From a virus, in the IMG/VR virus record IMGVR_UViG_3300008952_000181, positions 1 through 32,314 of that record: a stretch of DNA of 32,314 bases, one strand, 5' to 3'. The position numbers were made by a program, and so were the translations under genes. The notes beneath the pieces are model-generated. The model ran no database searches. It worked only from the letters and a program-made list of their open reading frames with translations, and was not told where the DNA came from. Of this stretch, positions 2,927-23,755 are shown piece by piece (position 1 is the stretch's first letter; every line of letters starts with the position of its first letter).

Positions 2927-4255
2927 ATGGAGATGGCGAACTCGGTGCCTCCTATGGCTATAGTTGCATACAACATGCAGGACCACGTCGCGATCGTAGC
3001 GACCCACATTCCGGAAGATGTTGTAAGAATGAGACTATTGAGAGAAGATCTTGCAAATACAGGCGATCTAGCGAGCCGAGTGGCAGTTATTGCTGCCACA
3101 AGCGACAACACTTTCCAGGTTGCTACATCCCCAGGCGGCCGCTATGTTTTTTATGATCGTTCAGCACTGCCGGGCCGTGGTTATCGCTACTTTGCTGTGC
3201 TTCAAAAGCAGCGTGGAAAAGAATTTATTGGAGAATCAGAAGAGCTGTTTGTTAGAATCTATCCCAGCGCTGCCATTCCTTTTGATGTGTCGCTAGAAGA
3301 CCTTTCGTTAGCACCATATAGGGGTGCTAACGGGAATTCGAGTCCTACTAAACAAGTGTCTTTTAACATAGTTTCGACGCCGTTAGATACAAAGATAGAC
3401 GAAGTGTTAGGACTCATGCAACAGGCCGGGGTATCACAAATTTTTATACAAGAAGTAGAGACTAATCGTGCACGATTTCGAGATTTGATAATGTTAAATG
3501 TGGAAAGAGTGAACATGCAGACGGGTAACAGGGAGTCGTTCGGACTCCACCCGCCCGGAATATTCAGAGACAATAGAGACACGCGCTCTGTCAACAATGT
3601 AGTGGACTTGGAAGACAATTCTAGATACACATATTTTGTCAAGATCTGCGTACGCCCAGCTCAAGCACTACTTAGTAGCGTGTTTGTCGGTTATTCAGAT
3701 GCTGCGCAGCCCGGAATAGAAAGCAAGAAGTTTCTTGCTCAGAAGTTTCTTAGCATTTATACCAATGTTTTTGCGGGAAGCCCGGGCGGTGCCCTTCCGT
3801 CTGATACCGAACTGTTGGAAGGTATTCCCCCTTTGGATAGCTTCGAAGCTGGCTATACCGGCCGGGAAGTGACGATTGACGCCAGCTTCCCTTCCACGGG
3901 GCCCCAGCCCACCAATCTCAAAGGCCACGTCACGCGGCCCTATTATTGTGATATAGACTGGGACGTTTCAGGTGAAGTAACGAGGCACGTCGATTACGCT
4001 GTGGTTTTAGTCAACGTCAATGGCGAAAGTTCTACCCTCGCCAGCGTCGATGTCAGCGACGCTGGCGCGACGGCTTACTATCGTGACTACTCCGGAATAT
4101 GGAACACTCCGGGAACAGTAACTTATACAGTGAGATACATGTACAGAAACGGCCGGCCGAGTGTAGCGAGCCGAGCATTCACAGTTACAAACCCTAGTGA
4201 TTTGCCGTCTGGCTTTGACGACGGCGTCATTGAAGGGGACGGAGCCACCCAATGA
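2927..4255 (+). CDS. Virion structural protein with fibronectin-III-like domains
   Basis: 442 residues, ATG at 2927, two bases after the previous stop and preceded by an AAGGGGG run that can pair with 16S rRNA. Residues about 25-110 (RMRLLREDLANTGDL, YVFYDRSALPGRGYRYFAVL, GESEELFV) follow the fibronectin-III strand pattern, with the typical D..L..G..Y.Y.. edge. A second beta-sandwich-like region lies near the C-terminus (YYCDIDWDVSGEVTRHVDYA, TVTYTVRYMYRNGRPSVASR). Such domains are common on phage surface and tail proteins, where they may contact cell-surface carbohydrate. The stop overlaps the next ATG by four bases (ATGA). A function beyond virion component is inference. Confidence 0.65.
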   Translation: MEMANSVPPMAIVAYNMQDHVAIVATHIPEDVVRMRLLREDLANTGDLASRVAVIAATSDNTFQVATSPGGRYVFYDRSALPGRGYRYFAVLQKQRGKEFIGESEELFVRIYPSAAIPFDVSLEDLSLAPYRGANGNSSPTKQVSFNIVSTPLDTKIDEVLGLMQQAGVSQIFIQEVETNRARFRDLIMLNVERVNMQTGNRESFGLHPPGIFRDNRDTRSVNNVVDLEDNSRYTYFVKICVRPAQALLSSVFVGYSDAAQPGIESKKFLAQKFLSIYTNVFAGSPGGALPSDTELLEGIPPLDSFEAGYTGREVTIDASFPSTGPQPTNLKGHVTRPYYCDIDWDVSGEVTRHVDYAVVLVNVNGESSTLASVDVSDAGATAYYRDYSGIWNTPGTVTYTVRYMYRNGRPSVASRAFTVTNPSDLPSGFDDGVIEGDGATQ

Positions 4256-7200
4256 GCCTCTCCCCAGACTCCAATACTGCTCCAATTTCCCCATCGGAAG
4301 CGTTAGACAGAAATATTTTGACGGTGGGCACAGACCCTCCAGAGATCGAAGAGAACCTCCCGTTGGTGCAGCTCGAACTTCAACCTGCCGACGAAATACC
4401 CAGCAGTGATGGCAGTCCAGAACCAGGTTTTGCAAACCTTGAGACGGATCGCACCGTTCCTTATGCGGTGGTTTCGATCCAAGGGAAGAATATAGATAAA
4501 TTGCTGGATTTAATCGATGCAAAAAGATTAGAGAAGCAATTGCAAGAAACCGTTTTGGCGCACCTTTACTCAGTCACGGAAGGCCCAATTGGCAATCCTG
4601 ATTTGGTATTTTCACTGTTGGAACAAGTGGATCAAGAGGTTGAAGACGTCGCTTCTTCTCTTGCAGCAGTTGAGTCGCTCACTCTGTTGTACGAAAACCT
4701 TAATGCAGATTTCGATCGTTTAGTACAAACTTCGAATGCCACTAATTTAGTGATGAATAACATAGAAAAGCTGGGGATTGATCCACTGGTGTATGCAGAA
4801 AAGACTTCTGTGACAGATTACGTACAGTTGATTGAGAGAGCATCAGGCATGCCAGACTTGGCAGACAGGTCTAACCTTAACAATTCGCAAATGTACTTGC
4901 AAGCCCTGTGGGAGATGGATTTTACTTTGAGGTATGGTGCATCAGCAGGCTTCGTGGATGCCGGTGCACTGGATCGAAATGCACCATTAGGCGATCGCCT
5001 CGCCGTAAATCCGTGGAGTGGACATGGTCAACAAGGCGTCGCCGGCGTGGAGGACTTGCAAGCAGGCCTAATGCCCATGAGCAGAATGGCCCCAGCTGAT
5101 CAACAACGGGAGGTCACCCGGACCTTCGGCGTCGGATACGATGGTTTGGCCACCCATGACCCCTGGGATTCCAGGCCCGAAGCGACGACGACGAATTCGG
5201 TTATTACCAACAGGAGCATGCTGTGGCGTACTGGTTACTTCTGCGCTGTGGTGGCTAGAGAGTTTCTGGTGTCAGCTGGTATCTCGCGGATTGGAGCCAC
5301 CCCGACGGCCCAATCTTTTGGCTTCGCCTCAGGCGATTTGCTCGCGTCATCACTCGGCCTTCATGAGTTCGATGGCTCCGATGTGTCAGACATCCCCGTG
5401 AACTCCTTAGCGAGCTTGATCTCAGCTGGATCGCTCCCAGGTTCACCCACCGGACGCGCAGATTTGCTAGAACTGCAGCACGGTGGATACCGAGAACAAG
5501 CTGATTTAGATTCGGGCGATGTCCGGACCGCTAAGTATTGGTTGGACTCCGTTAAGAGTCATCCGTTCGACAACTACGTGGGAGATTATACGGATAAGCT
5601 ACACAGTGCGCAAGGGAGGCTTTCTGCTGCAGAAGGGCTGTTTGGCACTCTGCTCAACAGAGATCAAAAGAGGGTTCTCACCACTCCACGAGGCCTCTTT
5701 ACGAGGGTGATCAAGGATTTTGCCATCATGATGGAAGGCATAACGTCGGCTAAATCCGATCCTGCCATCCTGCAGCAGACACTGGCCAGTTTTTTGTTAT
5801 TGAAGCAGGCCATGGCCGACGATGGAACCATAGACTCTCCTGCCCACATAAATGCGGACAACTTCGGCATCTCGGACCCTGGCTTGAGCAAAGAAGGCCT
5901 GGACGACCCCACTCTTCGTAAATGGCTGAGGCGAGTTTTAGTGCGTCGCATCGCGGCTGTTGTTGTCAACTCTCGAAAGGCCGCAGGCTTGGCAGATTAT
6001 TATAGTAGCGTAGCAGATTACGCCGTCCTGACCCGCGCGCAGGGCGCCGGCGCCGGTGGACACCATATCCAGGCGTCACCAGAATCAGCGAAGGCGATGA
6101 GGCTCAGCGGCCGTCCAGAGAGTATTCCAGCAGCTCACGGCGATCCCCACTACGACAGCAGCTGGTTAGGGTATTGCATAAGTACTTATGCATTGGCCGC
6201 CAAGCACAAGAGCTCGGGTGCTGCATGGGATGCCCCCGGGCCCCATGTGGACCAAATCACCGTTCCGGGCTGGGTGCTGGCATATCAAATCGTCCAACAA
6301 GGCAGACCCGACGGACCGGTGGCATCCCCCTATAGTATCGTGACAGTGATTGCTAAGATATTCGAAGATCTAGAGGCGGAAGCACTAGCTTTGGCCGGCT
6401 CAGACGGCAATTATCTTCGGCCTTCGAGGACATCGTTGTTCTCTGGCTGGGATTTTTCTGGGGTCGTCTCAAAGATCGCCAGTTGCTTCATGTACTTGAC
6501 CTACCAGTTTACCAATGTTCGCATCTACGCGAACGGAAGACGGATCGATGCTGGCGAACCCAGCGGACCCTGGGGCCAGGTCCAGGGCGATTTCATGCAA
6601 CTCGAGCAGCGGGTGCTCTTCGAGGGCAGCACATCCATCGACGACCCCACTAACAACAGCCGGTTGTTTCTTGCTGCGCTCGCTGCAGCTTCGGAATCTG
6701 ATGATCTTTCCGGATTGGTCACGCCTGACGGCTACCTCACAGCTACCCCGGTCGGAGGCGACCGCATCCCAGAGCTCCGGTCTCTGAATAGGTCGGCCCG
6801 CTGCCCGTCGGCTAGAGAGTTGATCGACATGATGAATGATTTGGCCTATGAAGACGGAGTGCCTACTGATATGTTTGCGATCGCTAAGGCTTTAGTAGGT
6901 AATACTGTTAAGAGTACTGCCGCTTTTCGCACGATGGCAGCGACGTTAAATGGCAATACCCCGGCTGAGTCTTCTAATGAGGCTGCCATATTCCGAAAGA
7001 TCCAATCTAGCGATCGCGAGGCAGACTTTTTAAAAAGCCTGTCAATAGCTCAGATCACTGCAGCACGCGCACGGTTGCATTCCATAAAAAACGCTTCCGC
7101 GCCAGGCTACTCAGTCAACCGATCTTCTGCAGCACTCTATAAGGCCTATAAGATGCTGTGGCATAAGAAGCTTAGCCAATGGAGCGTCCGCGGTGAGCAT

Positions 7201-8235
7201 GCGGCACTGTGCTTCATAGGTCTTCCTGCAGGTTCCATGAACGCGAAGATCGCAGCGCTGGAATCCCCGCCACAAGAAACCCTTCCACCGGTTCTTGAAT
7301 ACAATATAGATAAAGTCGGCGGCGCGCTTCCTACCATGGTCTTTAGCCCTAGGCACTACCAGTTTCTTTTAGGATGCAGCACTACTACAGAGCTGCTAGA
7401 ACAAGCATTCATGACAGAACCGATTCCGACGACTTTTGACGATCTAGTCATGAGCATCAAGTTCAACTTTCGAAGGAATTTAGAGCCGCAGTCTGGACTA
7501 GAATTGCTAGATCAAGCCCAGCAGGCTGGAATCGCGCGCGATAATAGGCTGGGAGTGTTACACAACACCCTAGAGTCCTTCCTATGGAAGAACTTGTATC
7601 AAGAGTTGACTGGCTATGCGTTTTTGGATCACCAGCTAGTATTAGAGCCTTTGGATGCTCGTTCTGCATCAACCATGCAGTTAGCGCGGGAATTAGTAAA
7701 ACCGATGGGAGTAGAAGAGGGAGATGTAAACAACTTCTTTCGATTCGAGGGCACTGACGTGCTGTTGCCTGGAAGTACACAGTTAGAAAGGTTGCTGCAG
7801 CCTCAAGTGACTAGCATTTCTGGATCCTATGCGTATAGCGTACCTAGGATTACGCCTGCACAAGCCGAAGTTATCTACAGTTTTTTTTCTACCAAACCTT
7901 TTTTTGTTGGTAAAGTGAGAGAGATGACGATGGCTCGAGTGGCGTTTGATAGAATGGATGCAATATTTCAAGACATAGAGGGCTTTCATTTAGACTTCGG
8001 AGCGTCCTCGCCGCCACATGGCACAGCAGAACGTGATGCATTCGACGCCTACGGAGAGGAAGCTGCAGCTGCTGAGGCCGTCCACAACGCCGTCACTGCA
8101 GGAGGCCAAAACCGTGGCACTAATACCCATCCCGAACCCGACGCCTTTTTCACCCAAGGCCTAAGGGCAGACAAGACTGTTCAGCTGCCTTCGTTATACG
8201 TTGGCGCTCGACTGTGGGACGGAGGCGAGTATTGA
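4252..8235 (+). CDS. Very large protein of unknown function, probable virion structural protein
   Basis: 1327 residues, starting at an ATG that overlaps the preceding stop (ATGA). After a Pro/Glu-rich first 70 residues comes a helical, possibly coiled-coil stretch (about 80-190: NIDKLLDLIDAKRLEKQLQE, FSLLEQVDQEVEDVASSLAA). The remainder is mixed and soluble-looking, with no hydrophobic segment, signal peptide or enzymatic motif I recognise. The central part (about nt 5000-6800) is visibly richer in G+C than the first 700 bases and the last kilobase, hinting at a mosaic gene. Size and neighbours suggest a structural component, such as a baseplate or head-associated protein or a protein injected with the DNA; none of these is demonstrated. 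Confidence 0.65.
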   Translation: MSLSPDSNTAPISPSEALDRNILTVGTDPPEIEENLPLVQLELQPADEIPSSDGSPEPGFANLETDRTVPYAVVSIQGKNIDKLLDLIDAKRLEKQLQETVLAHLYSVTEGPIGNPDLVFSLLEQVDQEVEDVASSLAAVESLTLLYENLNADFDRLVQTSNATNLVMNNIEKLGIDPLVYAEKTSVTDYVQLIERASGMPDLADRSNLNNSQMYLQALWEMDFTLRYGASAGFVDAGALDRNAPLGDRLAVNPWSGHGQQGVAGVEDLQAGLMPMSRMAPADQQREVTRTFGVGYDGLATHDPWDSRPEATTTNSVITNRSMLWRTGYFCAVVAREFLVSAGISRIGATPTAQSFGFASGDLLASSLGLHEFDGSDVSDIPVNSLASLISAGSLPGSPTGRADLLELQHGGYREQADLDSGDVRTAKYWLDSVKSHPFDNYVGDYTDKLHSAQGRLSAAEGLFGTLLNRDQKRVLTTPRGLFTRVIKDFAIMMEGITSAKSDPAILQQTLASFLLLKQAMADDGTIDSPAHINADNFGISDPGLSKEGLDDPTLRKWLRRVLVRRIAAVVVNSRKAAGLADYYSSVADYAVLTRAQGAGAGGHHIQASPESAKAMRLSGRPESIPAAHGDPHYDSSWLGYCISTYALAAKHKSSGAAWDAPGPHVDQITVPGWVLAYQIVQQGRPDGPVASPYSIVTVIAKIFEDLEAEALALAGSDGNYLRPSRTSLFSGWDFSGVVSKIASCFMYLTYQFTNVRIYANGRRIDAGEPSGPWGQVQGDFMQLEQRVLFEGSTSIDDPTNNSRLFLAALAAASESDDLSGLVTPDGYLTATPVGGDRIPELRSLNRSARCPSARELIDMMNDLAYEDGVPTDMFAIAKALVGNTVKSTAAFRTMAATLNGNTPAESSNEAAIFRKIQSSDREADFLKSLSIAQITAARARLHSIKNASAPGYSVNRSSAALYKAYKMLWHKKLSQWSVRGEHAALCFIGLPAGSMNAKIAALESPPQETLPPVLEYNIDKVGGALPTMVFSPRHYQFLLGCSTTTELLEQAFMTEPIPTTFDDLVMSIKFNFRRNLEPQSGLELLDQAQQAGIARDNRLGVLHNTLESFLWKNLYQELTGYAFLDHQLVLEPLDARSASTMQLARELVKPMGVEEGDVNNFFRFEGTDVLLPGSTQLERLLQPQVTSISGSYAYSVPRITPAQAEVIYSFFSTKPFFVGKVREMTMARVAFDRMDAIFQDIEGFHLDFGASSPPHGTAERDAFDAYGEEAAAAEAVHNAVTAGGQNRGTNTHPEPDAFFTQGLRADKTVQLPSLYVGARLWDGGEY

Positions 8236-12255: not shown

Positions 12256-14880
12256 ATGGCCATCATCCGCCTAACCGATGATAACTTCGAACGACTAGAG
12301 CTTCTCGCGAACCCAGAGAGGAAGTTTACATCATCCTCGATAGGCTCCGCTGGGACCGGCTCTATCGCTCCCAGCCTAGCATCGTCTGGCATCACCGGAT
12401 CCGTTCCTCTTTTCGCGGATGCTACGTCTGGCATCAAGGATCTCGAGCGTACTTTTGGGGAGGCCTTCACCGAGCGCTCTGCGCGCCAAGGGGAACTGGG
12501 ATCGATCTCTGCATATTTTGCCAATAACATTGACGAGTTTAGAAACGAAATAGTCGTGGTCGAAGCTCAAGGTCTGGTTGCTCCCGAAGACTCCCAAGTC
12601 ATCTTATGGCCTTTCATCGATCCGGGTGCGGCATACCCTTATCCTTTCCGACCTGCCGGGCCATCCAACGTGCGTCCTCCGCTAACAAGGTACTTGAGGA
12701 TGGTGAACAGCGCATCTGCTCCTGCGCGCCTGTCTAAACGCCAAGAGGTGCTTAGATTCACTCCTGGTGTCACCCTTGAATCAAATTTTTTGAGAAAGAC
12801 TGTGGTCAAAGACGTGCTGTTTCCGTATTGGCGCAAACATTACCCTTCTGCTCAATGGGCTTATTCCAATTATCACTGCCTGAACTTTGTGACTGGAGCC
12901 AACCTATCAACCAGTTCAGTGATGATATATCCGGCTGGCACTGGATCGCTTTCTCCGAACGTCGTCGGCAATCCTTATGGGCCGTCCAAAGCGTTTACTT
13001 TTGATTTTTATATCAATCCTAGATACTCGTCTGAAAGTCCAGGTGGCGTCTTCAAAGCCGGCACTATTCTGCACATGTCATCTTGTTATGCAGTCAGCTT
13101 AGTTACCGGTACCTCTATGGGTCCAGATGGAAAAAAGGATGGATTTAGGCTATTACTGCAGCTCAGCTCGAGTGCTAACATAAGGCCTAGCTCATGTGCT
13201 ATATCCGGCAATAAAGTCACTACCAGCATGTCAGGCGAAGACGCTAGTCAACTATATGTCTCCTCAGATAATTCACTCAAAAGGAATTATTGGCACCACG
13301 TGGCTATACGGTGGGGTGGCCCGCTAGTCAATAACGGCACCGGTTCTTTCGTCATTGACGGCACCATTGATAATCGTTTTGTGATAAGCTCTTCTAGTAT
13401 CATGCAGACGACATCTTCAGGGGGGTTTGCTAATCCGGATGGCCTGTTTGTGGGCAATTTTTACGAAGGAAGCAACTCTGGCACGAGTGCGATCGCTTAT
13501 TTTTTCAATCCTGCAGCTAGTCGTGACGAAGGAGTAGTAAATTTTAGTAATGACCTAGCGAGCCAAGATCCACTAAGTTTTACTTTTGAGCACCCTCTGA
13601 ATGCAGAGGTACACGACCTTAAGATCTATAACAAATTTAAAATTACAGATGAGATTCTGACTAGCTCTGAAAAGGGGACATCTCTCACTAAGAACCTGCT
13701 GTTCTACGTGCCCCCTCTTTTTACCAAAGATTCGCGTACAAGACTAGTGTTACAGACTCCGTTTTTTGACACCCTAACTTCAACTGAAGATCCTTTTAAT
13801 GTGGCTCTATCTTTCGGCATCGGCGGATTCGAAGTCAATACGGAGAATTTTGTCAGAGATTTTGTAACTAATCAATACCCTAGGCTGTTGCATCTGTCTG
13901 CAGCAAGAATAGATACTGCAGTACAAATTCCTAGGACTGCAAATTACTTATTGTATGAGTCTGGCTCTACTATCAAGCGCAATGTTACCATTCTTCCCTG
14001 CGATAATGGGAGGTTTTTTCCTAATTACGATTTAATAAAAAAATCTCCTGCCCAAGGTCTTTCTAACATAGCTTCTGGGACGTCTTCGACTGCGAATTTT
14101 AGCGGTTCTTTTGATGATAGGTTCGTCGATGATTTTGGGGTCAAGGATTATTCGCTGATCAATTTAAGGTCCCTAGTATCAACAGCTAGTATCGTTCCTG
14201 GATTAGTTTCCGTTCCCGCTGCGCCGTCCACAGGTTCGATTTTGCCTTCTATTCTTTCTTCGTTGGAAGGTGCCACTCCTGAAGATCCGGGTATTTCCCC
14301 TGGTAGTACGCTGACCGTGCTTCAAAGGACCCACGATCCTAGTTCTAACGAGGTGGTATTTTTCGACATGTCTAACATGTTTTACGGAGAGAAGATAGAG
14401 CCTGGGACAGTAGTTCTCGAGGATCTGTGCGTGTCCGGAACTCACGGCCGCATGACTTTTAAGGTCAAAGATGACTCCCGCGGAAACCTCTACAGGGCTG
14501 ACGGTTTATCTTCTCATGCAACTTGGGCATCAATTGGTAACGTTCTCTACGAAGAAGGCATAATCGTGATAAAGACTCCGCATATGCCGTTTTTTGGAAA
14601 AGACGCATTTAGGGTATCTTTTTCTGGCCATCGCAATGTCTACGTCCTAGAAGTCACGGTCCCAGCTAAGGCGTCGCTGTTCAATTCATCTACTAATCCT
14701 ACATACCGAGATTTGGCTCCGACTACATACGATAACGAAATAGCCAAAAGGTTTTCTTATCTGACTGGAATAAATTTGCATGATAACAATTTCAACGTGA
14801 TAGGCCGAGCTAATTTCGCACAACCTATTATCAAGAGGGAGTCTGACAAGGTGGTCGTTAAATTGAGAATGGATTTTTGA
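12256..14880 (+). CDS. Large virion protein with LamG/concanavalin-like domain
   Basis: 874 residues, ATG with AAGGGG about ten bases upstream. Residues about 250-465 show a LamG-type jellyroll pattern: FTFDFYINPRY, a strand with GFRLLLQLSSS, the signature NYWHHVAIRWGG, FVIDGTIDNRF, and the closing HDLKIYNKFKITDEI. In the concanavalin A-like superfamily such domains often bind carbohydrate, so contact with the host surface is plausible. The last 40 residues (INLHDNNFNVIGRANFAQP, then VKLRMDF) repeat the C-terminal module of the upstream protein. The stop overlaps the following start by one base. Probably a tail-fibre, baseplate or capsid-surface protein; ligand unknown. Confidence 0.7.
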   Translation: MAIIRLTDDNFERLELLANPERKFTSSSIGSAGTGSIAPSLASSGITGSVPLFADATSGIKDLERTFGEAFTERSARQGELGSISAYFANNIDEFRNEIVVVEAQGLVAPEDSQVILWPFIDPGAAYPYPFRPAGPSNVRPPLTRYLRMVNSASAPARLSKRQEVLRFTPGVTLESNFLRKTVVKDVLFPYWRKHYPSAQWAYSNYHCLNFVTGANLSTSSVMIYPAGTGSLSPNVVGNPYGPSKAFTFDFYINPRYSSESPGGVFKAGTILHMSSCYAVSLVTGTSMGPDGKKDGFRLLLQLSSSANIRPSSCAISGNKVTTSMSGEDASQLYVSSDNSLKRNYWHHVAIRWGGPLVNNGTGSFVIDGTIDNRFVISSSSIMQTTSSGGFANPDGLFVGNFYEGSNSGTSAIAYFFNPAASRDEGVVNFSNDLASQDPLSFTFEHPLNAEVHDLKIYNKFKITDEILTSSEKGTSLTKNLLFYVPPLFTKDSRTRLVLQTPFFDTLTSTEDPFNVALSFGIGGFEVNTENFVRDFVTNQYPRLLHLSAARIDTAVQIPRTANYLLYESGSTIKRNVTILPCDNGRFFPNYDLIKKSPAQGLSNIASGTSSTANFSGSFDDRFVDDFGVKDYSLINLRSLVSTASIVPGLVSVPAAPSTGSILPSILSSLEGATPEDPGISPGSTLTVLQRTHDPSSNEVVFFDMSNMFYGEKIEPGTVVLEDLCVSGTHGRMTFKVKDDSRGNLYRADGLSSHATWASIGNVLYEEGIIVIKTPHMPFFGKDAFRVSFSGHRNVYVLEVTVPAKASLFNSSTNPTYRDLAPTTYDNEIAKRFSYLTGINLHDNNFNVIGRANFAQPIIKRESDKVVVKLRMDF

Positions 14881-15443
14881 TGATATCGTTAGGATTAGAC
14901 GTTTCGACATCTATTACTGGTTTTTGTCTAGTGGACACAGAAGCTCCACTCGAATCGCGGTTGATCCGAGCTGGCGGCATTATAACGAGTAATAAAAAAG
15001 ATTTCTATTCTAAAGCGCTTGAGGTCCGCCGTGTGTTTAGTGACTTACACAACAGCATGACGATTGAGAGCGTGGTAATCGAAGAGAACTTGCAAGCTTT
15101 TAGACGGGGGTTATCTTCTGCCAAAACTTTGTCGACGCTAGCTAGATTTAATGGCATCGTTTCTTTTTTGGCGCAAGATATTTTTGGTGTTTCGATTGAT
15201 AGGTTGAATGTTAACAGCGCAAGGTCGCAGCTGGGTGTGAAACTAGATAGAAAAAGTGATGTCCCTATCAAAGAACAGATTCTACTTTGGGTAAAAAACA
15301 TGCCAGAGTTTGAAGCTTTTGATTGGCCTATGAAGACCCTCAAGAGCGGTCCTAGGAAGGGGCAGATCATTCACGCTCCTGAATGTTTTGACATTGCAGA
15401 TGCTGCTGTAGTATGTTTTGCCAGTCTAGAACTTGAACAATAA
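14880..15443 (+). CDS. RuvC-like Holliday junction resolvase (RNase H fold)
   Basis: The ATG at 14880 shares its A with the upstream TGA, giving 187 residues (a TTG one codon earlier is less likely). RuvC-family enzymes cut four-way DNA junctions using four acidic residues in an RNase H fold. Here they are seen as D7 (LGLDVSTSITGF), E68/E69 (VVIEENLQAF) and a C-terminal D171-x-x-D174 (CFDIADAAVV), the same D-x-x-D spacing as in RuvC. T4 itself uses the unrelated endonuclease VII (gp49), so this would be an analogous replacement that trims branched DNA before packaging. Adjacent primase and Mre11-Rad50 genes fit recombination-coupled replication. Family call fairly sure; substrate inferred. 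Confidence 0.8.
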   Translation: MISLGLDVSTSITGFCLVDTEAPLESRLIRAGGIITSNKKDFYSKALEVRRVFSDLHNSMTIESVVIEENLQAFRRGLSSAKTLSTLARFNGIVSFLAQDIFGVSIDRLNVNSARSQLGVKLDRKSDVPIKEQILLWVKNMPEFEAFDWPMKTLKSGPRKGQIIHAPECFDIADAAVVCFASLELEQ

Positions 15444-15463
15444 GTGAAAGCTTTTAGATTTAG

Positions 15464-16423
15464 ATGATGGGTCTCGAAAGGGACATAAAAACTCTACTGG
15501 ATCGTGCCTTTGGAAAAGGGCTGCTCTCTAGAGATGGCATAAACTATGCTTTGTGCTGTCCTGCGTGTAATGATTCTCGTAGAGGCAAAAAGAAGCTGAT
15601 AGTGCGTCTAGACGATGGACGATACCACTGTTGGGTGTGTGGAGCCAAGGGCTCGAACGTTCTTTGGTTGATATCCAAGTTTCGATCAGATCTCTTGAGC
15701 GACCGCGATCACATAGACTTCAGGAAGTTACACGACGATCCGGGGGAAACCTCTCCGGATATCTCTCTCCCTCCAAAAGCAGTGATGCTAGGGAGCAGCA
15801 GGATCCAGCCCGACCCAGACATTCAGGCCGCCAGGAATTATCTGATCAAGCGAGGCTTGGATCGGAAGGATATGTGTCGATGGCGCATACTGTCCTGTTC
15901 CGTAGGCCGATTCCGCCGCCGCGTGATCATTCCTTCTTTTGATAGTGAAGGAAACCTGAATTACTACGTCACACGGACGATCGATGCGACTAAAAAAATG
16001 AAGTACCAAAATGCGGATGTTCCTAAAGCCGAAGTCATCTTTAACGAACTTGACATGGATTGGGCTAAAGAAGTGCTTTTGGTTGAAGGGGTTTTTGATG
16101 CGATCAAATGCCCAGAAAACACGTTGCCCATTCTAGGGTCTAGTTTCTCTAAGCGATCGATGGTATTGCGTACCCTGATGAAGCATCAGACGCCGTGTGT
16201 GGTCTCTTTGGACCCTGACATGAAGCAGAAGGCCTACAAGATAGCAGACCTGCTAGTTTCAGCTGGCTGTTCCGTAAGGATTGCTTTTGCGCCGACTGGG
16301 AAAGATTTAGGTGATCTTACGAAGAACGAAGTTTCGAAGCTCGTAAAATCGGCACCGGCGTACAACGATATGATGAGGATAACACACAAGATCAGCGAGA
16401 TAAAATCCGGCTCGTTGCTGTGA
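15464..16423 (+). CDS. DNA primase, DnaG/T4 gp61 type
   Basis: 319 residues; two successive ATGs (15464, 15467) with no clear ribosome site. The N-terminal zinc-binding domain shows C32-x2-C35 and C56-x2-C59 (LCCPACNDS, YHCWVCGAKG), a four-cysteine version of the CHC2 finger. The Toprim domain has E208-G209 (VLLVEGVFDAI), D250-x-D252 (VVSLDPDM) and a later acidic pair, DLGD (281-284), which coordinate metal in DnaG-type primases. Length is close to T4 gp61. It should synthesise RNA primers for lagging-strand replication, normally with a gp41-type helicase not found in this window. It lies between the resolvase and Mre11-Rad50 genes, probably co-transcribed. Confidence 0.87.
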   Translation: MMGLERDIKTLLDRAFGKGLLSRDGINYALCCPACNDSRRGKKKLIVRLDDGRYHCWVCGAKGSNVLWLISKFRSDLLSDRDHIDFRKLHDDPGETSPDISLPPKAVMLGSSRIQPDPDIQAARNYLIKRGLDRKDMCRWRILSCSVGRFRRRVIIPSFDSEGNLNYYVTRTIDATKKMKYQNADVPKAEVIFNELDMDWAKEVLLVEGVFDAIKCPENTLPILGSSFSKRSMVLRTLMKHQTPCVVSLDPDMKQKAYKIADLLVSAGCSVRIAFAPTGKDLGDLTKNEVSKLVKSAPAYNDMMRITHKISEIKSGSLL

Positions 16424-16429
16424 AATAAT

Positions 16430-19400
16430 ATGAAATATAAATTTGCACATTTTGCTGACGTGCATTGGCGCGGCCTGAGTAGACACAGTGAGTATCGTCG
16501 GGCTTTCTCTGAGGCTTTTGATATATTGAGGGAAGAGGGCGTCGATGCGATCTTCGTAGTAGGAGACATTGTTCATTCTAAGACGCAAGGTATCTCTCCT
16601 GAGCTGATCGATAGTCTGTGTTGGTGGTTCAGAGAGATGAACAGCATAGCAGAGACGTACATTACATTGGGTAATCATGACGGCTTGATTATGAACAAGG
16701 ATCGAGAGGACGCGATCAGCCCTATAGTGCGTGCACTGGATCTCCCTAATCTACATTTGGTTAAAATGACCGAGAAGGTGGCGTACGACGAAGCTTTAGA
16801 CATCAGCAATTTTTCTTGTTTTGACGAAGTTTCGTGGCCCAACCTCAGCCCAACCCCGGGAAAACTCAATGTAGCTCTCTTTCACGGCGCGGTCCGCGGT
16901 AGCAAGACGGACATCGATTGGGAGCTGGATGGAGAGGTCGATGCACAGATGTTTGAAGGCTATGATTTCGTCTTCCTAGGCGATATTCACAAGTATCAAT
17001 ACTTGGACGAAAAAAATACGATTGCCTATTGCGGTTCGACGATCCAACAGAACTTTGGTGAGAACCCAGACAAAGGGTTCATGCTTTGGGAGATCGATTC
17101 TGAAAGCCAGTATCAATCTAGGCATATTCGCGTACCTCACGACCGGCCTTTTGTCACAGTCGATTGGCAGGGCACGGTGGTGGACACTTTGGATGCGGCA
17201 GAAATGTATCCCGACCGTGCCAGGTTCAGGATAAGGACTCACTCTACCATCTCTCAAGGCGAGATAAAGCAGCTGTACGCTTCGCTCAAAGAGTTTAAGT
17301 CTGCATCAGAGATCGTGATGAAACACGAGCCGACAAAGATCGAAGGCGCGTTCGACAGCGCAGAGGATGGCCGTAAACTGGACCTGAGAGATCCTAAGTT
17401 CGTTTCTCAAATGGTACAAGACTACTATCGAAAGGCCGGTTTGAGCGATCGAATGAATTCCAGGCTGGATGAATTGTTGCATCGATTGTGGAAGTCTGCC
17501 ATTAAAGCTGACCCTTCTCGAGGCGGCCGGTGGTCGCTCAAGTCTTTAGAGTTTGATAACACTTTTGGTTTTGGTAAGAACAATAAAATAAGTTTTGACG
17601 TCGCTGATGGCATTTTGGGAGTGTTTGGAAAAAACAGGATAGGCAAGTCTTCCATTTGTGGCACACTCATGTATAGCTTGTTCAACGCCACGGATCGAGG
17701 TTCTATGTCCAACCTTCATGTGATCAACACGAGAAAGGGCCACTGCAAGGCTCGTGCGGTCATAAGCAAGTCCAGTAAGAATTATCTGGTAGAAAGACAG
17801 ACCGTTAAGAAGCAAGCCCGATCGGGCCGACTGAGTGCAGCAACTCATCTCAACCTGCTGGAAGTCGATGAAAAGCTGGATGTGGTCAAGGATCTGTGCG
17901 GGGACCAGCGCCGCGAAACTGAGAAGGTCCTACGGGAGATCGTCGGGACTTCGGAAGATTTTTTGTTGACCTCGTTTGCTGCCCAAGGAGAGATGAATGC
18001 GTTTCTCAAGCAGAAAGCATCTTCCAGAAAAACGGTACTCTCTAAATTTCTACAACTGGATGTATTTGAGCGCCTCCATGATGCTGCTAAGGAGGAGAGT
18101 GCCGGAGTCAAACAGCTGCTCAAGAATGTGCCCGATAGAGACTTCGATGTTGCGATCGTTGATCTGCGCAGCAAGCTGGCGGCCAGGGAGGCTGAGCGAG
18201 AGTTGCTTTGGGGCCGCTTAGAAAACCTTCGTCGTAAAGCGAGGGAGCTCGAGCTGACGCTAGCAACTAGATCGGATGGAAACTTGGTGACTCAACAGGA
18301 CATCGATGATCAGCAAGAAAAGATGCGAGAGTTAAAAACAGAGATAACGCGCAGGGAGTTGAGAGAAGCTCAACTCGTTACAGAAGCAGAAGACTTGCGC
18401 GAGAAATCAGAAAAGCTGTTTACGTTTAAAGAGAGCTTTCCCATCGATAATTTGAAGGTGTCGTTTGTGGAACAGAAGGAGCTTGAAGCTTCGGTATCTT
18501 CCATCAAACACAGTGTAGAAAAAGAGAACCAAAAACTAAAGACGTTGCACAAGCAAGTAGATAGGCTAACGGACGTTCCGTGCGGTGATTCTTTCCCTGA
18601 ATGCCAGTATATCGTGAGTGCTCAAAAGGCTAAAAAGCAACTGAGTGCGCAACAGAATAAGGCTGAAGAATTAAAAGAGGACTTGAAGGCAACCAGAAAG
18701 TATCTGAAGAAGCTATTGGACCAAGGCTTGGAAGACAAGCTCGAGCGCTATAACGAGTTGCTAACAAAGCATAACGCTATCAACATTGAGAAGAGCCAAA
18801 TCGAATTTAAGCTGAATACCGAGCACAGCAATCTGGAAAAAGCGAAGGAGACCCTCCGAGTGGAAGACGCTAGCATCGATGAGATGAAAGCGAACCTGGC
18901 TACGGACGATGCTGCTGCTCAAGTAAAACAACTCCGAGAGAAGCTGGGCGATCTCAAGAAGAAGATAGCGACTAGCGAAACCAAGCATGCAGCGCTTTCG
19001 GAAACGATAGGCTTACTATCTTCTGATATATTGAAGCTCAAGAACGATAAGGAGCAGTTCAAGAACCTCATCGAACAGTGGAAAGTATTCGAGCTGTTCT
19101 TACAAGCAACTTCCAAGAATGGGATCCCGCTTGAAGTAATCCGATCCAGGCTGCCCGAGATCAATACAGAGATTGCTAGTGTCTTACAAGGAGTGACTGG
19201 CTTCACTGTGGAGTTGGAGTCAGACGAGGGCTCGAATGAAATGGTCATCTACATAAACTATGGAGATTCACGACGGATCATTGAGTGCGCGTCTGGGATG
19301 GAAAAGATGATGTCTGCTTTGGCGATCCGCGTGGCATTGATTAACGTTTCTTCTCTGCCTAAATCTGATATACTGATCATAGATGAGGGTTTCGGAGCTT

Positions 19401-19564
19401 TAGACGGAGCTAACGTTGAGGCATGTGGTAGGTTCTTGGAGGCTCTTAAGAAGTGGTTCAAGACCATACTGGTCATTTCGCACGTAGATGCCATAAAAGA
19501 TAACGTGGACAATGTATTAGAGATTGGACGCGATGGGATCGATTCGCATGTCGTATTCAGCTAG
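16430..19564 (+). CDS. Single-chain Mre11-Rad50 (SbcD-SbcC; gp47-gp46) fusion, recombination nuclease/ATPase
   Basis: One uninterrupted frame of 1044 residues. Residues 1 to about 345 are an Mre11/SbcD/gp47-type calcineurin-like phosphoesterase with all metal-binding motifs: D10-x-H12, GD46-x2-H49, GNH83D84, H152, GDIH187. From about 368 a Rad50/SbcC/gp46-type ABC ATPase begins, with Walker A GKNRIGKS (400-407). A long coiled coil follows, then the signature ASGMEKMMSALA (from 954), Walker B LIIDEG (D985-E986) and the H-loop H1018. The hook at the coiled-coil tip is C718-x6-C725 instead of the usual C-x2-C. The complex resects DNA ends for recombination-dependent replication. In T4 and cells the two subunits are separate genes. 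No ribosome site is evident; the 3' end overlaps the next gene. Confidence 0.9.
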   Translation: MKYKFAHFADVHWRGLSRHSEYRRAFSEAFDILREEGVDAIFVVGDIVHSKTQGISPELIDSLCWWFREMNSIAETYITLGNHDGLIMNKDREDAISPIVRALDLPNLHLVKMTEKVAYDEALDISNFSCFDEVSWPNLSPTPGKLNVALFHGAVRGSKTDIDWELDGEVDAQMFEGYDFVFLGDIHKYQYLDEKNTIAYCGSTIQQNFGENPDKGFMLWEIDSESQYQSRHIRVPHDRPFVTVDWQGTVVDTLDAAEMYPDRARFRIRTHSTISQGEIKQLYASLKEFKSASEIVMKHEPTKIEGAFDSAEDGRKLDLRDPKFVSQMVQDYYRKAGLSDRMNSRLDELLHRLWKSAIKADPSRGGRWSLKSLEFDNTFGFGKNNKISFDVADGILGVFGKNRIGKSSICGTLMYSLFNATDRGSMSNLHVINTRKGHCKARAVISKSSKNYLVERQTVKKQARSGRLSAATHLNLLEVDEKLDVVKDLCGDQRRETEKVLREIVGTSEDFLLTSFAAQGEMNAFLKQKASSRKTVLSKFLQLDVFERLHDAAKEESAGVKQLLKNVPDRDFDVAIVDLRSKLAAREAERELLWGRLENLRRKARELELTLATRSDGNLVTQQDIDDQQEKMRELKTEITRRELREAQLVTEAEDLREKSEKLFTFKESFPIDNLKVSFVEQKELEASVSSIKHSVEKENQKLKTLHKQVDRLTDVPCGDSFPECQYIVSAQKAKKQLSAQQNKAEELKEDLKATRKYLKKLLDQGLEDKLERYNELLTKHNAINIEKSQIEFKLNTEHSNLEKAKETLRVEDASIDEMKANLATDDAAAQVKQLREKLGDLKKKIATSETKHAALSETIGLLSSDILKLKNDKEQFKNLIEQWKVFELFLQATSKNGIPLEVIRSRLPEINTEIASVLQGVTGFTVELESDEGSNEMVIYINYGDSRRIIECASGMEKMMSALAIRVALINVSSLPKSDILIIDEGFGALDGANVEACGRFLEALKKWFKTILVISHVDAIKDNVDNVLEIGRDGIDSHVVFS

Positions 19565-19763
19565 CTCGAAGGTCGTGTTCGTAGGGAAGAAGCAGCCTTA
19601 CAAGTGTGAAGTGTGCCAATTCGTATTACGGGACATAGAGGACGTCAAGTCGGCCAAGGAGCACGGAGCATGCACCAATTGTGTCATGGTGTTCAAGTAT
19701 GTGCGTTACGATGATTGGGAAAATGGTTGGCGGCCTACTATCTCTGAGGCAAGGTCAGCATAA
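19548..19763 (+). CDS. Small zinc-ribbon protein
   Basis: 71 residues if started at the ATG at 19548, which overlaps the Mre11-Rad50 gene by 17 bases; an ATG at 19533 would add five residues. Neither start has a strong ribosome site, so translation may be coupled to the upstream gene. Two CxxC pairs (C20-x2-C23 in YKCEVCQFVL and C42-x2-C45 in ACTNCVMVF), 18 residues apart, form a probable zinc ribbon. The C-terminal part is aromatic (KYVRYDDWENGW). Such small ribbons are often nucleic-acid or protein-binding adaptors. Its place after the recombination genes and before packaging genes suggests a DNA-related or transcription-related role, but no specific function can be assigned. Confidence 0.65.
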   Translation: MSYSASSKVVFVGKKQPYKCEVCQFVLRDIEDVKSAKEHGACTNCVMVFKYVRYDDWENGWRPTISEARSA

Positions 19764-19780
19764 GCATGATAATTATTTTC

Positions 19781-19790
19781 GGAGGATAAA
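19781..19790 (+). promoter_or_regulatory. Strong ribosome binding site, leader shared with the gene at 26040
   Basis: GGAGGATAAA immediately precedes the ATG at 19791, with GGAGG at 19781-19785 and a five-base spacer. The identical ten bases precede the ATG at 26040. This is the strongest ribosome site in this part of the window and fixes the start of the 123-residue protein. The upstream 17 bases (19764-19780) are AT-rich (GATAATTATTTT) and could hold a promoter, but no convincing TATAAATA element is present. Confidence 0.55.
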
Positions 19791-20162
19791 ATGAATTTAG
19801 AAACCGTACGACAGATTGCAGAGATTCTCGAGAACTCGTGGGGACGCGAGTCTAGTCCAGATGGGACCTATTCGATCAAGCATGACTTGCAAGGCAATAA
19901 GCTGACTCTCAAGTTTACCACCGTGGTTCATTTTGCTGATGAAGCCGGCCTACGGCCCCAGATTGAAGCGGCCAGCAACCAAGCCACCCAACTGTTAGAT
20001 GCAAAAGTTGCTACGCTGAAAAGCACTTACAGAGAGGCTTTGGGCGAGACTTTGAGGCTGGAAGATCTCGGCGGGACAGATGACGTTGACCTGATAATGC
20101 CAGTGGGCCCTAGAAAGGTTGCATATTATCGATACAACCATTCGTTCGCTGTTCAAGAGTAG
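19791..20162 (+). CDS. Conserved-looking small protein of unknown function upstream of terminase
   Basis: 123 residues with a well-defined start (GGAGG five bases upstream). N-terminal helix (NLETVRQIAEILENSWGR), two strands (TYSIKHDLQGNKLTLKFTTV), then a charged helix (about 55-88) and a C-terminal strand (VAYYRYNHSFAVQE). No cysteine or enzymatic motif. It ends two bases before the GTG of the large terminase. In T4 the small terminase gp16 occupies this position, but I see no helix-turn-helix or coiled-coil pattern that would justify that name; position is the only argument. A packaging accessory is possible. Confidence 0.6.
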   Translation: MNLETVRQIAEILENSWGRESSPDGTYSIKHDLQGNKLTLKFTTVVHFADEAGLRPQIEAASNQATQLLDAKVATLKSTYREALGETLRLEDLGGTDDVDLIMPVGPRKVAYYRYNHSFAVQE

Positions 20163-20164
20163 TA

Positions 20165-21781
20165 GTGGCCAAGATCAGCAAGCAAAAGCAGATCAAGGAA
20201 ATAATCAAGTGTGGCAAAGGCCCGGTCTACTTTGTCAACAAGTACGTCAAGATCCAACACCCCACCCGCGGTTTGATCCCATTCGATACTTACCCTTTCC
20301 AAGACGATTGCTTTGGAGCGTTTGTTGATCACCGATTCAACATAATCCTCAAATCCCGTCAACTGGGCATCTCCACCCTGACGGCATGTTATGCAGTCTG
20401 GTTGGCTGCTTTTTACAGGGACAAGAATATTCTTGTCATTGCAACTAAACTGGCCGTTGCACAGAATTTCATCAAGAAAGTAAAGACTGCTCTTCGAAGC
20501 ATGCCGGCATGGTTGATGATTCCAGAAATAACGTCCGCCAACAAACAAGGCGTAGAGTTCAGTAACGGCTCGACCATCAAGGCAGTGCCGACCTCCGACG
20601 ACGCCGGCCGGTCAGAAGCACTCTCTTTGTTGATCGTCGATGAGGCAGCATTCATCAGGAACTTCGACGAACTGTGGATGGGCTTGTACTCTACGCTCTC
20701 GACCGGAGGCCGCGCCATCGTCTTGTCGACTCCTAACGGCGTCGGCGATAAGTACCACGAGCTGTGTACGGGAGCTGAAAACGGAGAAAACGATCTCAAT
20801 TTCATAAAGCTACTTTGGGACGTCCACCCCGAAAGGGATGCTGAGTGGTTCGATACTGAGACGAAAAACATGAGCAGAAAGCAGATTGCGCAAGAGCTCA
20901 TGTGCGATTTTGCTGCTAGTGGCGATACGTTCTTGACTAGTTTGGACCTAGAGAAGATGTCCTTGCAGATACAAACTCCTTTAGAGCGATGGGGCCCGGA
21001 CATGGGGGTCTGGGTGTGGAAGTACTCCTTATCTGAGCACAAGTACATCATCTCTGCCGACGTTGCCCGAGGCGATGCTGCTGACTATTCTGCCTTTCAA
21101 GTGTTCGATTCCACTACCGCTGAACAAGTCGCCGAATACAAGGGGAAAATACCGCCCGATCAATTTGCAGTACTCTTAGCAGAAGCCGGCAAGAGGTACG
21201 GTGATGCACTGATATGCCCTGAAAACAACACGTATGGTTATGCGACTGTCATGAAGCTCGTCGACGTAGGCTATCGCAACCTATACTTTAAAAATGAAAA
21301 GGATAAGTTTGCGGCACTCTATGGTCAAGGCGTCCCAGACGTTTCTAAGATCGGATTTCAGACTAATTCACAAACGCGCAACCAGATCTTGACGAAGCTA
21401 GAGGAGACCATAAGGACCAATACGGTAAGGTTTTACTCTGCTAGGCTGTATGATGAACTGAAGACGTTTGTATGGAAAGGCTCCAAGGCACAAGCGCAGA
21501 AGGGCAAAAACGATGATTTAGTCATATCAGCAGCGATTGGAGTCTGGCTCTTTGATGCCAGCCCTGTATACAACTCACAAACTCAAGATATCAATAAGGC
21601 TATTTTAGCCGGCTTTGGAGTGAACCAACAGGAGTTGCCCACACAAGCTTCTCCGTGGGACCCTCAAGCACACAACCCGTTTAAACATTACATGCAATAT
21701 CATCCCCACCGACCGGCCGGTGAGATGCACAAGAGCGGCTCTTTGGATGAAACAGATTACAGCTGGGTTTTATCAGACTGA
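20165..21781 (+). CDS. Terminase large subunit (T4 gp17-like packaging ATPase-nuclease)
   Basis: 538 residues, GTG start two bases after the previous stop with AAGAG just upstream. It powers DNA translocation into the prohead and cuts the concatemer. ATPase: the Walker A region is K63-SRQLGIST, lacking lysine at the classical GK(S/T) place but with K63 and R65 at the front, a deviant arrangement known in some terminases. Walker B LLIVDE (D159-E160) and the coupling motif STP (189-190 region) follow. Nuclease: D299 (SADVARGD), E353 (CPENNTYG) and D450-D451 (KNDDLVISAAIG) give the RNase H-like acidic set. Length is slightly under T4 gp17 (610). The portal gene follows directly, with no sheath or tube genes between as there are in T4. 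Confidence 0.93.
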   Translation: MAKISKQKQIKEIIKCGKGPVYFVNKYVKIQHPTRGLIPFDTYPFQDDCFGAFVDHRFNIILKSRQLGISTLTACYAVWLAAFYRDKNILVIATKLAVAQNFIKKVKTALRSMPAWLMIPEITSANKQGVEFSNGSTIKAVPTSDDAGRSEALSLLIVDEAAFIRNFDELWMGLYSTLSTGGRAIVLSTPNGVGDKYHELCTGAENGENDLNFIKLLWDVHPERDAEWFDTETKNMSRKQIAQELMCDFAASGDTFLTSLDLEKMSLQIQTPLERWGPDMGVWVWKYSLSEHKYIISADVARGDAADYSAFQVFDSTTAEQVAEYKGKIPPDQFAVLLAEAGKRYGDALICPENNTYGYATVMKLVDVGYRNLYFKNEKDKFAALYGQGVPDVSKIGFQTNSQTRNQILTKLEETIRTNTVRFYSARLYDELKTFVWKGSKAQAQKGKNDDLVISAAIGVWLFDASPVYNSQTQDINKAILAGFGVNQQELPTQASPWDPQAHNPFKHYMQYHPHRPAGEMHKSGSLDETDYSWVLSD

Positions 21782-21784
21782 ATT

Positions 21785-21797
21785 CATAAATATTATT
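21785..21797 (+). promoter_or_regulatory. Candidate T4-type late promoter upstream of portal gene
   Basis: CATAAATATTATT differs from the T4 late promoter consensus TATAAATACTATT at only two positions. It lies between the terminase stop (21781) and the portal ATG (21821), a position that would start the mRNA about 20 bases before the start codon. A related CATAAATAT occurs at 26011-26019. In T4 such sites are read by RNA polymerase carrying the gp55 sigma factor with gp33 and the gp45 clamp; none of those genes is in this window. Confidence 0.6.
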
Positions 21798-21820
21798 AGC
21801 CGTGTAGCAACGAGGATAGG

Positions 21821-23755
21821 ATGCCCAAACAGCCCAGCCTTTTTAATCGCCTGACCAAATTATTTAGGTCAGGCCCGGTGGTCAAACGCCGCGTCAAGAA
21901 CTTTAATCAGCCAGCAGCATCTTCAGCACTCGAGGTTTTCAAGAGAGCTCACAGCGACATTTATAACAATACCATAAGTGCATACGGCGCTTATGACAGG
22001 ATGTCTCGGTACAGTGACTTTTCTGAAATGGAGACTACCCCGGAGATTGCTTCTGCATTAGACATTTATGCTGAAGAATCTGTGTCGCCGGACGAACACG
22101 GAAGAGTCCTGCACATCTATTCTGATAACAGAAAGATACAAGAGCACTTAGAGCATCTTTTTCGGGACGTCCTGAATGTTGAATTCAACTTGGTCATGTG
22201 GGTACGAAACTTGTGCAAGTATGGAGACTTCTTTCTGTTCAACGATGTGTCTCCGGAGTTCGGCATCATCGCTGCTTACCCCATCGCGATCTCTGAAATG
22301 GAACGAGAGGAAGGGTTCGATCCAGATGATCCATTGGCCACTCGGTTTAGGTGGGTCACACAAGGGAACCAATTATTAGAAAATTGGCAGGTGGCTCATT
22401 TTAGGCTGCTTGGCAATGATGCATTTCTGCCTTACGGGAGTTCGGTCTTGGAGTCAGGCCGTCGAATATGGCGGCAACTGATACTCATCGAAGACGCGAT
22501 GCTAGTATACAGGGTGATCCGAGCTCCTGAACGACGAGTGTTTTATATCGACGTGGGTAACGTGCCTCCTGAGGATGTATCCAACTATCTTCAGCAAGCT
22601 CAAACTTCCTTAAAGAGGAACCAAGTCGTTGATCGAGATTCAGGAAAGGTAGACCTCAGATACAATCCTCTGAGCGTCGACGAGGACTATTTTTTGCCGG
22701 TTCGTGGCGGCGAGTCCGGTACCAAGATAGACACTCTTGCTGGTGGGCAGAACACAGCAGCGATTGAGGATGTGGAGTACATACAGAAGAAACTGTTTGC
22801 AGCCCTGAAGATTCCTCGCGCTTACCTGGGTTACGATGAGGACGTCGGTGCAAAAGCAACATTGGCGCAAGAAGATATCAGGTTTTCACGCAGCATCCAG
22901 CGCATCCAAAAGACGGTCATCTCTGAACTGAACAAGTTGGCCATGATCCACCTCTACTGTCATGGTTATGACGGTGAAGAGCTCGCCGATTTCGAACTAC
23001 GCCTTTCCAATCCTTCGACGATAGCTCAACAACAAAAACTGGAACTCATTAGGACCAGATTCGAGATCGCCGGTACTGCGCCCGAGGGTTCAGTTAACAG
23101 GTCTTGGATCCAGAAGAACGTCTTAGGTTTGACTGAGGAAGAGATCAAAGACGTCGTAAAAGGAAGGATTCAAGACAAGGTTGATGATGCAGAGGTCGAA
23201 GCTGCGGCCACCGTGGAAGAAGAGGTCGGCGGAGCGCCTGCCGGCGGCGCTGAGGCCGGCGGGGATGAAGGAGGCTTATTTGCAGCAGATGAACCAGAAG
23301 GTGAGCTGCTGACGGCGCTGCCAGCCTCAGGTGATGACGAAGAATCCGAGTTGGAGGACGACGACGTAATATTGAACTTGTCCATCGATGACGACGATGC
23401 TCCCATCAAAGCTCAAAATGCCATCATGAATGCTTTTGGGCAGCCAGCGCAGACCAGAAGGGTGTCTCGTCATGGACCAGCTTCGACTCACACACCGGAT
23501 TTTGCTACGATGACTTCGGTTGGCCGTCCTGGCCGAGGACAAGATACCTTGAACCAGCCCTTTGATGATGATTTCATCAAATCTCCTTTTAAGGAGGCTC
23601 ATGATGCGCCATTAGTTGCTCCAAGGTTGACAATCGATCTAGTTAAGACGCTTGGACACATGTCGAACAAGATAGGTATATCTAAGCAGACTCTGCTTTC
23701 GGAGTCTGACGAAGAACTAAGTACGAGAGGTGAAGACCACAATGGCGAAGCATAA
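21821..23755 (+). CDS. Portal vertex protein (T4 gp20-like) with acidic C-terminal extension
   Basis: 644 residues, ATG with GAGG five bases upstream. It forms the dodecameric ring through which DNA passes and on which prohead and neck assemble. Family-typical segments include the N-terminal helix (LEVFKRAHSDIYNNTISAYG), RYSDFSEMETTPEIASALDI, the SLKRNQVVDRDSGKVDLRYN region and FAALKIPRAYLGYDED (about 325-345), followed by the helical LAQEDIRFSRSIQRIQKTVI. T4 gp20 is 524 residues. The extra length is mostly an Ala/Gly/Asp/Glu-rich segment (about 450-530) that looks disordered, then a conserved-looking tail. It follows the terminase with a possible late promoter between; the 3' end overlaps the next gene by 14 bases. 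Confidence 0.92.
   Translation: MPKQPSLFNRLTKLFRSGPVVKRRVKNFNQPAASSALEVFKRAHSDIYNNTISAYGAYDRMSRYSDFSEMETTPEIASALDIYAEESVSPDEHGRVLHIYSDNRKIQEHLEHLFRDVLNVEFNLVMWVRNLCKYGDFFLFNDVSPEFGIIAAYPIAISEMEREEGFDPDDPLATRFRWVTQGNQLLENWQVAHFRLLGNDAFLPYGSSVLESGRRIWRQLILIEDAMLVYRVIRAPERRVFYIDVGNVPPEDVSNYLQQAQTSLKRNQVVDRDSGKVDLRYNPLSVDEDYFLPVRGGESGTKIDTLAGGQNTAAIEDVEYIQKKLFAALKIPRAYLGYDEDVGAKATLAQEDIRFSRSIQRIQKTVISELNKLAMIHLYCHGYDGEELADFELRLSNPSTIAQQQKLELIRTRFEIAGTAPEGSVNRSWIQKNVLGLTEEEIKDVVKGRIQDKVDDAEVEAAATVEEEVGGAPAGGAEAGGDEGGLFAADEPEGELLTALPASGDDEESELEDDDVILNLSIDDDDAPIKAQNAIMNAFGQPAQTRRVSRHGPASTHTPDFATMTSVGRPGRGQDTLNQPFDDDFIKSPFKEAHDAPLVAPRLTIDLVKTLGHMSNKIGISKQTLLSESDEELSTRGEDHNGEA

Follow-up and report, generated by a model that had tools for sequence, protein, structure and literature searches.

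Fusions of the nuclease Mre11 and the ATPase Rad50 into one polypeptide were described in 2011 by Yoshida, Claverie and Ogata, to those authors' knowledge for the first time (PMC3175470). The fusions listed came from Mimivirus, Bacillus phage 0305phi8-36, plasmids, bacteria and eukaryotes, with the same domain order in all of them. Relatives were abundant in aquatic viral metagenomes, where phage primases were found among the neighbouring ORFs; the fusion itself was confirmed on only a few GOS scaffolds, and no phage lineage was defined (PMC3175470).

The gp47 and gp46 proteins of phage T4 contain the same two domains as the protein analysed here but are encoded by separate genes. The hook of this pair is of the CXXC kind (CPTC), its Mn site reads GHFH and its gp46 is shorter; its known roles are recombination-dependent replication and host DNA degradation. 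E. coli SbcCD and T. maritima Mre11–Rad50 likewise share the catalytic motifs and the fold, but consist of two chains instead of one; E. coli SbcC alone has 1048 residues and a CXXC hook (CPLC).

The window studied here covers an IMG/VR virus record of 32,314 bases from end to end. As its relatives sit on records of 163–237 kb, it is probably part of a larger genome. It contains a 1044-residue ORF that begins with ATG and has no internal stops (Table 1). Residues 1–358 match the SbcD-like PHROG phrog_100 (E 9e-36) and residues 370–1035 the SbcC-like phrog_77 (E 9e-45), in agreement with the first-pass annotation, which had placed Mre11-type and Rad50-type domains in one continuous frame. In Pfam, Metallophos covers residues 4–189, and SMC_N and the SbcC Walker B profile give weak matches. 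Solved Mre11 and Rad50 chains match both halves by sequence and by fold, the Foldseek matches being Mre11–Rad50 and SMC structures. The same annotation had been aware of no described family with this architecture. That statement has to be withdrawn, given the fusions published in 2011 (PMC3175470), those deposited for giant viruses and phages, and the hundreds of relatives in IMG/VR. The protein belongs to the already described viral Mre11/Rad50 (SbcDC) fusions, an architecture known since 2011.

Table 1. Features of the fused gene and its neighbours (positions in the window)
Feature	Position	Strand	Evidence
RuvC-like Holliday junction resolvase	14877..15443	+	phrog_159 E 8e-7; upstream in 102/128 fused loci
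DnaG-like primase, gene immediately before the fusion	15464..16423	+	phrog_47 E 8e-45; upstream in 113/128 fused loci
Fused SbcD–SbcC (Mre11–Rad50), 1044 aa	16430..19564	+	ORF, PHROGs, fused homologues
Mre11/SbcD nuclease and capping region, residues ~1–300	16430..17329	+	phrog_100, Metallophos, conservation, AF2
Helix-loop-helix (predicted Rad50-binding tail), residues 322–357	17393..17500	+	AF2 helices, low dN
Inter-domain linker, residues 358–366	17501..17527	+	AF2, alignment
Rad50/SbcC N-lobe, residues 367–565, Walker A 400–407, Q519	17528..18124	+	phrog_77, alignment, AF2
Apex hook between coiled-coil arms, residues 716–728, CX6C (C718, C725)	18575..18613	+	alignment, AF2, pattern scan
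Rad50/SbcC C-lobe, residues 899–1044	19124..19561	+	Pfam, phrog_77, alignment, AF2
Small cysteine-rich ORF overlapping the fusion 3' end, start codon uncertain	19524..19763	+	homologue downstream in 62/72 fused loci
123-aa ORF	19791..20162	+	homologue downstream in 63/72 fused loci
Terminase large subunit	20165..21781	+	phrog_2 E 4e-47; downstream in 66/72 fused loci

With Mimivirus R555 and the other viral SbcDC fusions, the window protein shares the Mre11-then-Rad50 order, a retained helix-loop-helix, a linker of about 9–12 residues, an Asp in place of P. furiosus H206, abundance in aquatic samples and phage-primase neighbours. R555 differs in its length of 1351 aa and its coiled coil of cellular length. 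The same fusion is present in Microcystis phage Mel-JY01 (WWT39521.1, 1066 aa, deposited as 'AAA domain containing protein'), with a DNA primase-like gene upstream; the two proteins are 27% identical overall, and the Mel-JY01 hook is CXXC (CKHC) instead of CX6C. Full-length matches in the fold search include Tenacibaculum phages pT24 and PTm1 as well as the giant viruses Tupanvirus, Harvfovirus and Catovirus.

Both catalytic sites are conserved. In an alignment of 88 sequences (the query and 87 homologues), D10, H12, D46, H49, N82, H83, H152 and H187 of the nuclease half are invariant or nearly so, as are Walker A (400–407), S955-G956-x-E958, D985-E986 and H1018 of the ATPase half. The Rad50 motifs are where the first-pass annotation had located them, the signature SG(M/A)EK reading S955-G956-M-E958 in this protein and the Q-loop also being present. 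The ligands of the nuclease half are D10, H12, D46, N82, H152, D185 and H187, plus H49 and H83, and the SbcD/Mre11 metal-site motifs DxH, GDxxH, GNHD, H and GxxH can all be recognized, with a substitution at D185. The residues named earlier for the five Mre11 metal-binding motifs are all in place, but the description of a complete set needs one correction: the second Mn ligand, corresponding to H206 of the P. furiosus enzyme, is Asp in 86/86 aligned sequences (D185, 'GDIH', where the usual GHxH has its first histidine). The same replacement has been reported for Mimivirus R555 (PMC3175470). Judging from this residue, nuclease activity could be altered, the Mn2 ligand being Asp rather than His.

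A scan of viral contigs with the fusion alignment returned at least 544 relatives, the best 80 of which were all fused. Because ranking over the full length favours fusions, the scan of IMG/VR viral contigs was repeated with the nuclease half only. Seventy-seven loci were fused, three were cut by the end of a contig or stretch, and none was split; nine split controls, including phage T4, E. coli and Herelleviridae, scored as split in the same analysis. On the question of how widespread the fusion is, which the first-pass annotation had raised, the scans show that it is common and has gone to fixation in a large lineage of aquatic phages (77/77 untruncated IMG/VR loci from the nuclease-half scan). 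No SbcC other than the fused gene occurs in any of the 11 large records (163–237 kb), one of which has the C-terminal piece of this gene read separately; in 10 of the 11, the fused protein is also the only Metallophos protein. Each of the 11 also has one RecA-family protein above the cut-off. What had been a hint from a few short scaffolds in 2011 becomes a large phage lineage with a fixed fusion, present as a rule in one copy and in a conserved gene order.

In a quick tree, in which the split rows are very long-branched, all 59 fused sequences fall on one side of a branch (SH-aLRT 95), which suggests a single origin of the fusion for this sample, from which R555 and the cellular fusions are absent. 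The scan of cellular genomes (genome_contigs) gave two weak loci: a fused gene of 26% identity on a 3.9 kb contig of a deltaproteobacterial MAG (L090), and a nuclease half alone, accompanied by RuvC-like and primase-like genes, on a contig binned as Bacteroidales (L091, 453–5831). The SbcD relative at the latter locus has GHIH, with no SbcC within 10.8 kb, and the contig probably belongs to a phage that was not recognised as such, its SbcD being truncated or encoded separately. Among plasmids, the nuclease half found six weak partial matches and did not recover the plasmid fusions of the 2011 paper.

The surroundings of the gene are also conserved. The order RuvC, primase, fusion, two small ORFs, terminase and portal (14877–23755) is kept in most fused loci, as counted with profiles built from the window genes at the 128 fused loci testable upstream and the 72 testable downstream. 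The first small ORF has CxxC pairs in its translation, and the 123-aa ORF matches nothing in PHROGs or Pfam. In the window, the terminase is followed by genes for the portal, the prohead protease and the major capsid protein. This terminase is closest to those of Flavobacterium phage immuto (41%) and Microcystis phage Mel-JY01 (42.8%); no SbcCD annotation is present in the 16 kb around the immuto terminase.

The structure of the junction was predicted with AlphaFold2 as a monomer from a 47-sequence alignment (mean pLDDT 83.4). The relative placement of the domains is uncertain in this model, because it is a monomer with a pTM of 0.51. In the prediction, the nuclease and capping domain are followed by a poorly ordered loop (301–315), and helices 322–332 and 340–357 occupy the place of the Mre11 helix-loop-helix. 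A linker of ~9 residues leads to the first Rad50 strand (367–376), and the coiled coil extends to about residue 894, ahead of the C-lobe, with helices 672–715 and 729–763 flanking the apex. The motif 'RNVxW' marks the junction in the family alignment, with R364 in 43/47 sequences and W368, just past the linker, in 46/47. From the T. maritima complex, a linker of 9–12 residues had been estimated for a gap of ~28 Å (PMC3175470). Since the helix-loop-helix is retained and the modelled linker length agrees with that expectation, the fusion most likely keeps the ordinary Mre11–Rad50 docking and does not replace it. The geometry proposed in the first-pass annotation stands in so far as the Mre11 C-terminus precedes the first Rad50 strand; the model still has the helix-loop-helix tail, with the linker in between. 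Its suggestion that the fusion fixes a 1:1 stoichiometry adds little, as the M2R2 complex is already 1:1.

Adjacent or nearly adjacent sbcD and sbcC genes, as found in other phages and as neighbours in T4 and E. coli, are the kind of arrangement that an assembly or sequencing error could join into an artefactual fusion. The probability of such an error is negligible here, and it can be rejected for practical purposes, since the same fusion is found on independent contigs from many metagenomes and in every untruncated locus, is carried as a CDS by the isolate phage Mel-JY01, and has a conserved junction. Ungapped 1044-aa homologues come from other metagenomes (L005, 79% identity; L002, 77%), and another independent contig (L010, 74%) has the same fusion. 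Compared with L005 and L002, the window has a pS of 0.67–0.97 by segment, with synonymous sites near saturation, and a dN of 0.12–0.15 over residues 321–400; as dN is low while synonymous sites are nearly saturated, the junction is, by this substitution pattern, under purifying selection. It is very improbable that two working chains are made from the gene, whether through internal initiation or through cleavage of the protein between the helix-loop-helix and Rad50. Residues 280–420 do contain a few in-frame ATG, GTG or TTG codons, but none is a convincing start for a separate Rad50 and none falls cleanly at the Rad50 strand; the sole Shine-Dalgarno-like match (5/6) belongs to a CTG at residue 317, and conservation of the linker residues also argues for a single chain.

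The gene combines one frame, two intact catalytic sites, a retained helix-loop-helix, a short linker with conserved residues and a coiled coil that ends in an apex hook, and its neighbours are conserved too. With high probability, it encodes the single-chain Mre11–Rad50 (SbcDC) complex of a large aquatic T4-superfamily-like phage, of the gp46/gp47 type, which would resect or clip ends for recombination-dependent replication. Two chains would dimerise through their ATPase heads and nuclease domains, and possibly their hooks; the helix-loop-helix of each would bind the root of the coiled coil, either in the same chain or in the partner. On ATP-gated opening, the nuclease would resect or clip DNA ends, and the resulting 3' ends would be used by the phage RecA-like recombinase, as with gp46/gp47. 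Alternatively, the enzyme could mainly degrade host DNA. Once the neighbouring genes had been joined, balanced production and assembly of two chains was probably no longer necessary. The main rival is a role nearer to packaging, because terminase and RuvC are among the neighbours of the gene: together with the RuvC-like resolvase, the complex would clear hairpins, branches or ends from concatemers before the terminase acts. The position between RuvC/primase and terminase/portal in most relatives and the cleavage of hairpins by SbcCD (PMC3175470) are in keeping with this role, but it is unlikely: the usual upstream neighbour is a primase and not a structural gene, all the large records checked contain a RecA-like gene, recombination-dependent replication is where the T4 homologues act (PMC3175470), and timing is not set by gene order alone. 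If the gp46/gp47-type complex is indeed formed by a single chain with a short coiled coil, it would be convenient for structural work on docking in cis versus trans.

The apex hook is the one less-expected feature of an otherwise known design. The window protein lacks the CXXC zinc hook and carries CX6C at its apex (P-C-G-D-S-F-P-E-C). CXXC is not essential to the definition of the SbcC/Rad50 family, and the hook varies within the fused clade: 124 distinct complete fused proteins comprise 86 with CX6C, 24 with CXXC and 14 with other spacings, as assigned by a regular expression on the central region that may misassign a few. CXXC is found in seven of the eight split pairs examined; the eighth, from a Moorella phage, has no CXXC and one CX7C match (CNDKLKPSC). 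When viral contigs were searched for DNA encoding PCG[DE]xFPxCx[FY]I, regardless of fusion, all 79 places examined lay in SbcC-like frames, 64 of them fused, 15 cut at the end of a stretch and none split. No CX6C hook was found in the split SbcC proteins examined, and this class so far appears confined to the fused lineage. The 2011 paper makes no mention of a hook (PMC3175470), and a literature search, with subscription journals mostly outside its reach, found no published CX6C hook. The CX6C hook may bind zinc or dimerise. It is possible, and proposed here tentatively, that the fused lineage has a distinct Rad50 apex hook, P-C-G-[DE]-x-[FY]-P-x-C-x-[FY]-I, which replaces CXXC, forms dimers with another loop or metal geometry and occurs only in single-chain Mre11–Rad50. 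Such a hook could indicate how rigidly the CXXC rule applies.

Three of the loci collected have additional or displaced reading frames. In a 484-kb uncultured phage (L006, LR756508.1), a 305-aa ORF whose cysteine pairs resemble zinc fingers interrupts the fused gene (3944–8166) within the SbcD half; it looks like an intron or an inserted homing-endonuclease gene. At about 5400–5832 of L149, a piece running from Walker B to the C-terminus lies in a separate frame behind the end of a homing-endonuclease-like ORF, and at about 7900–8360 of L050 a partial second copy of the C-terminus follows the intact one.
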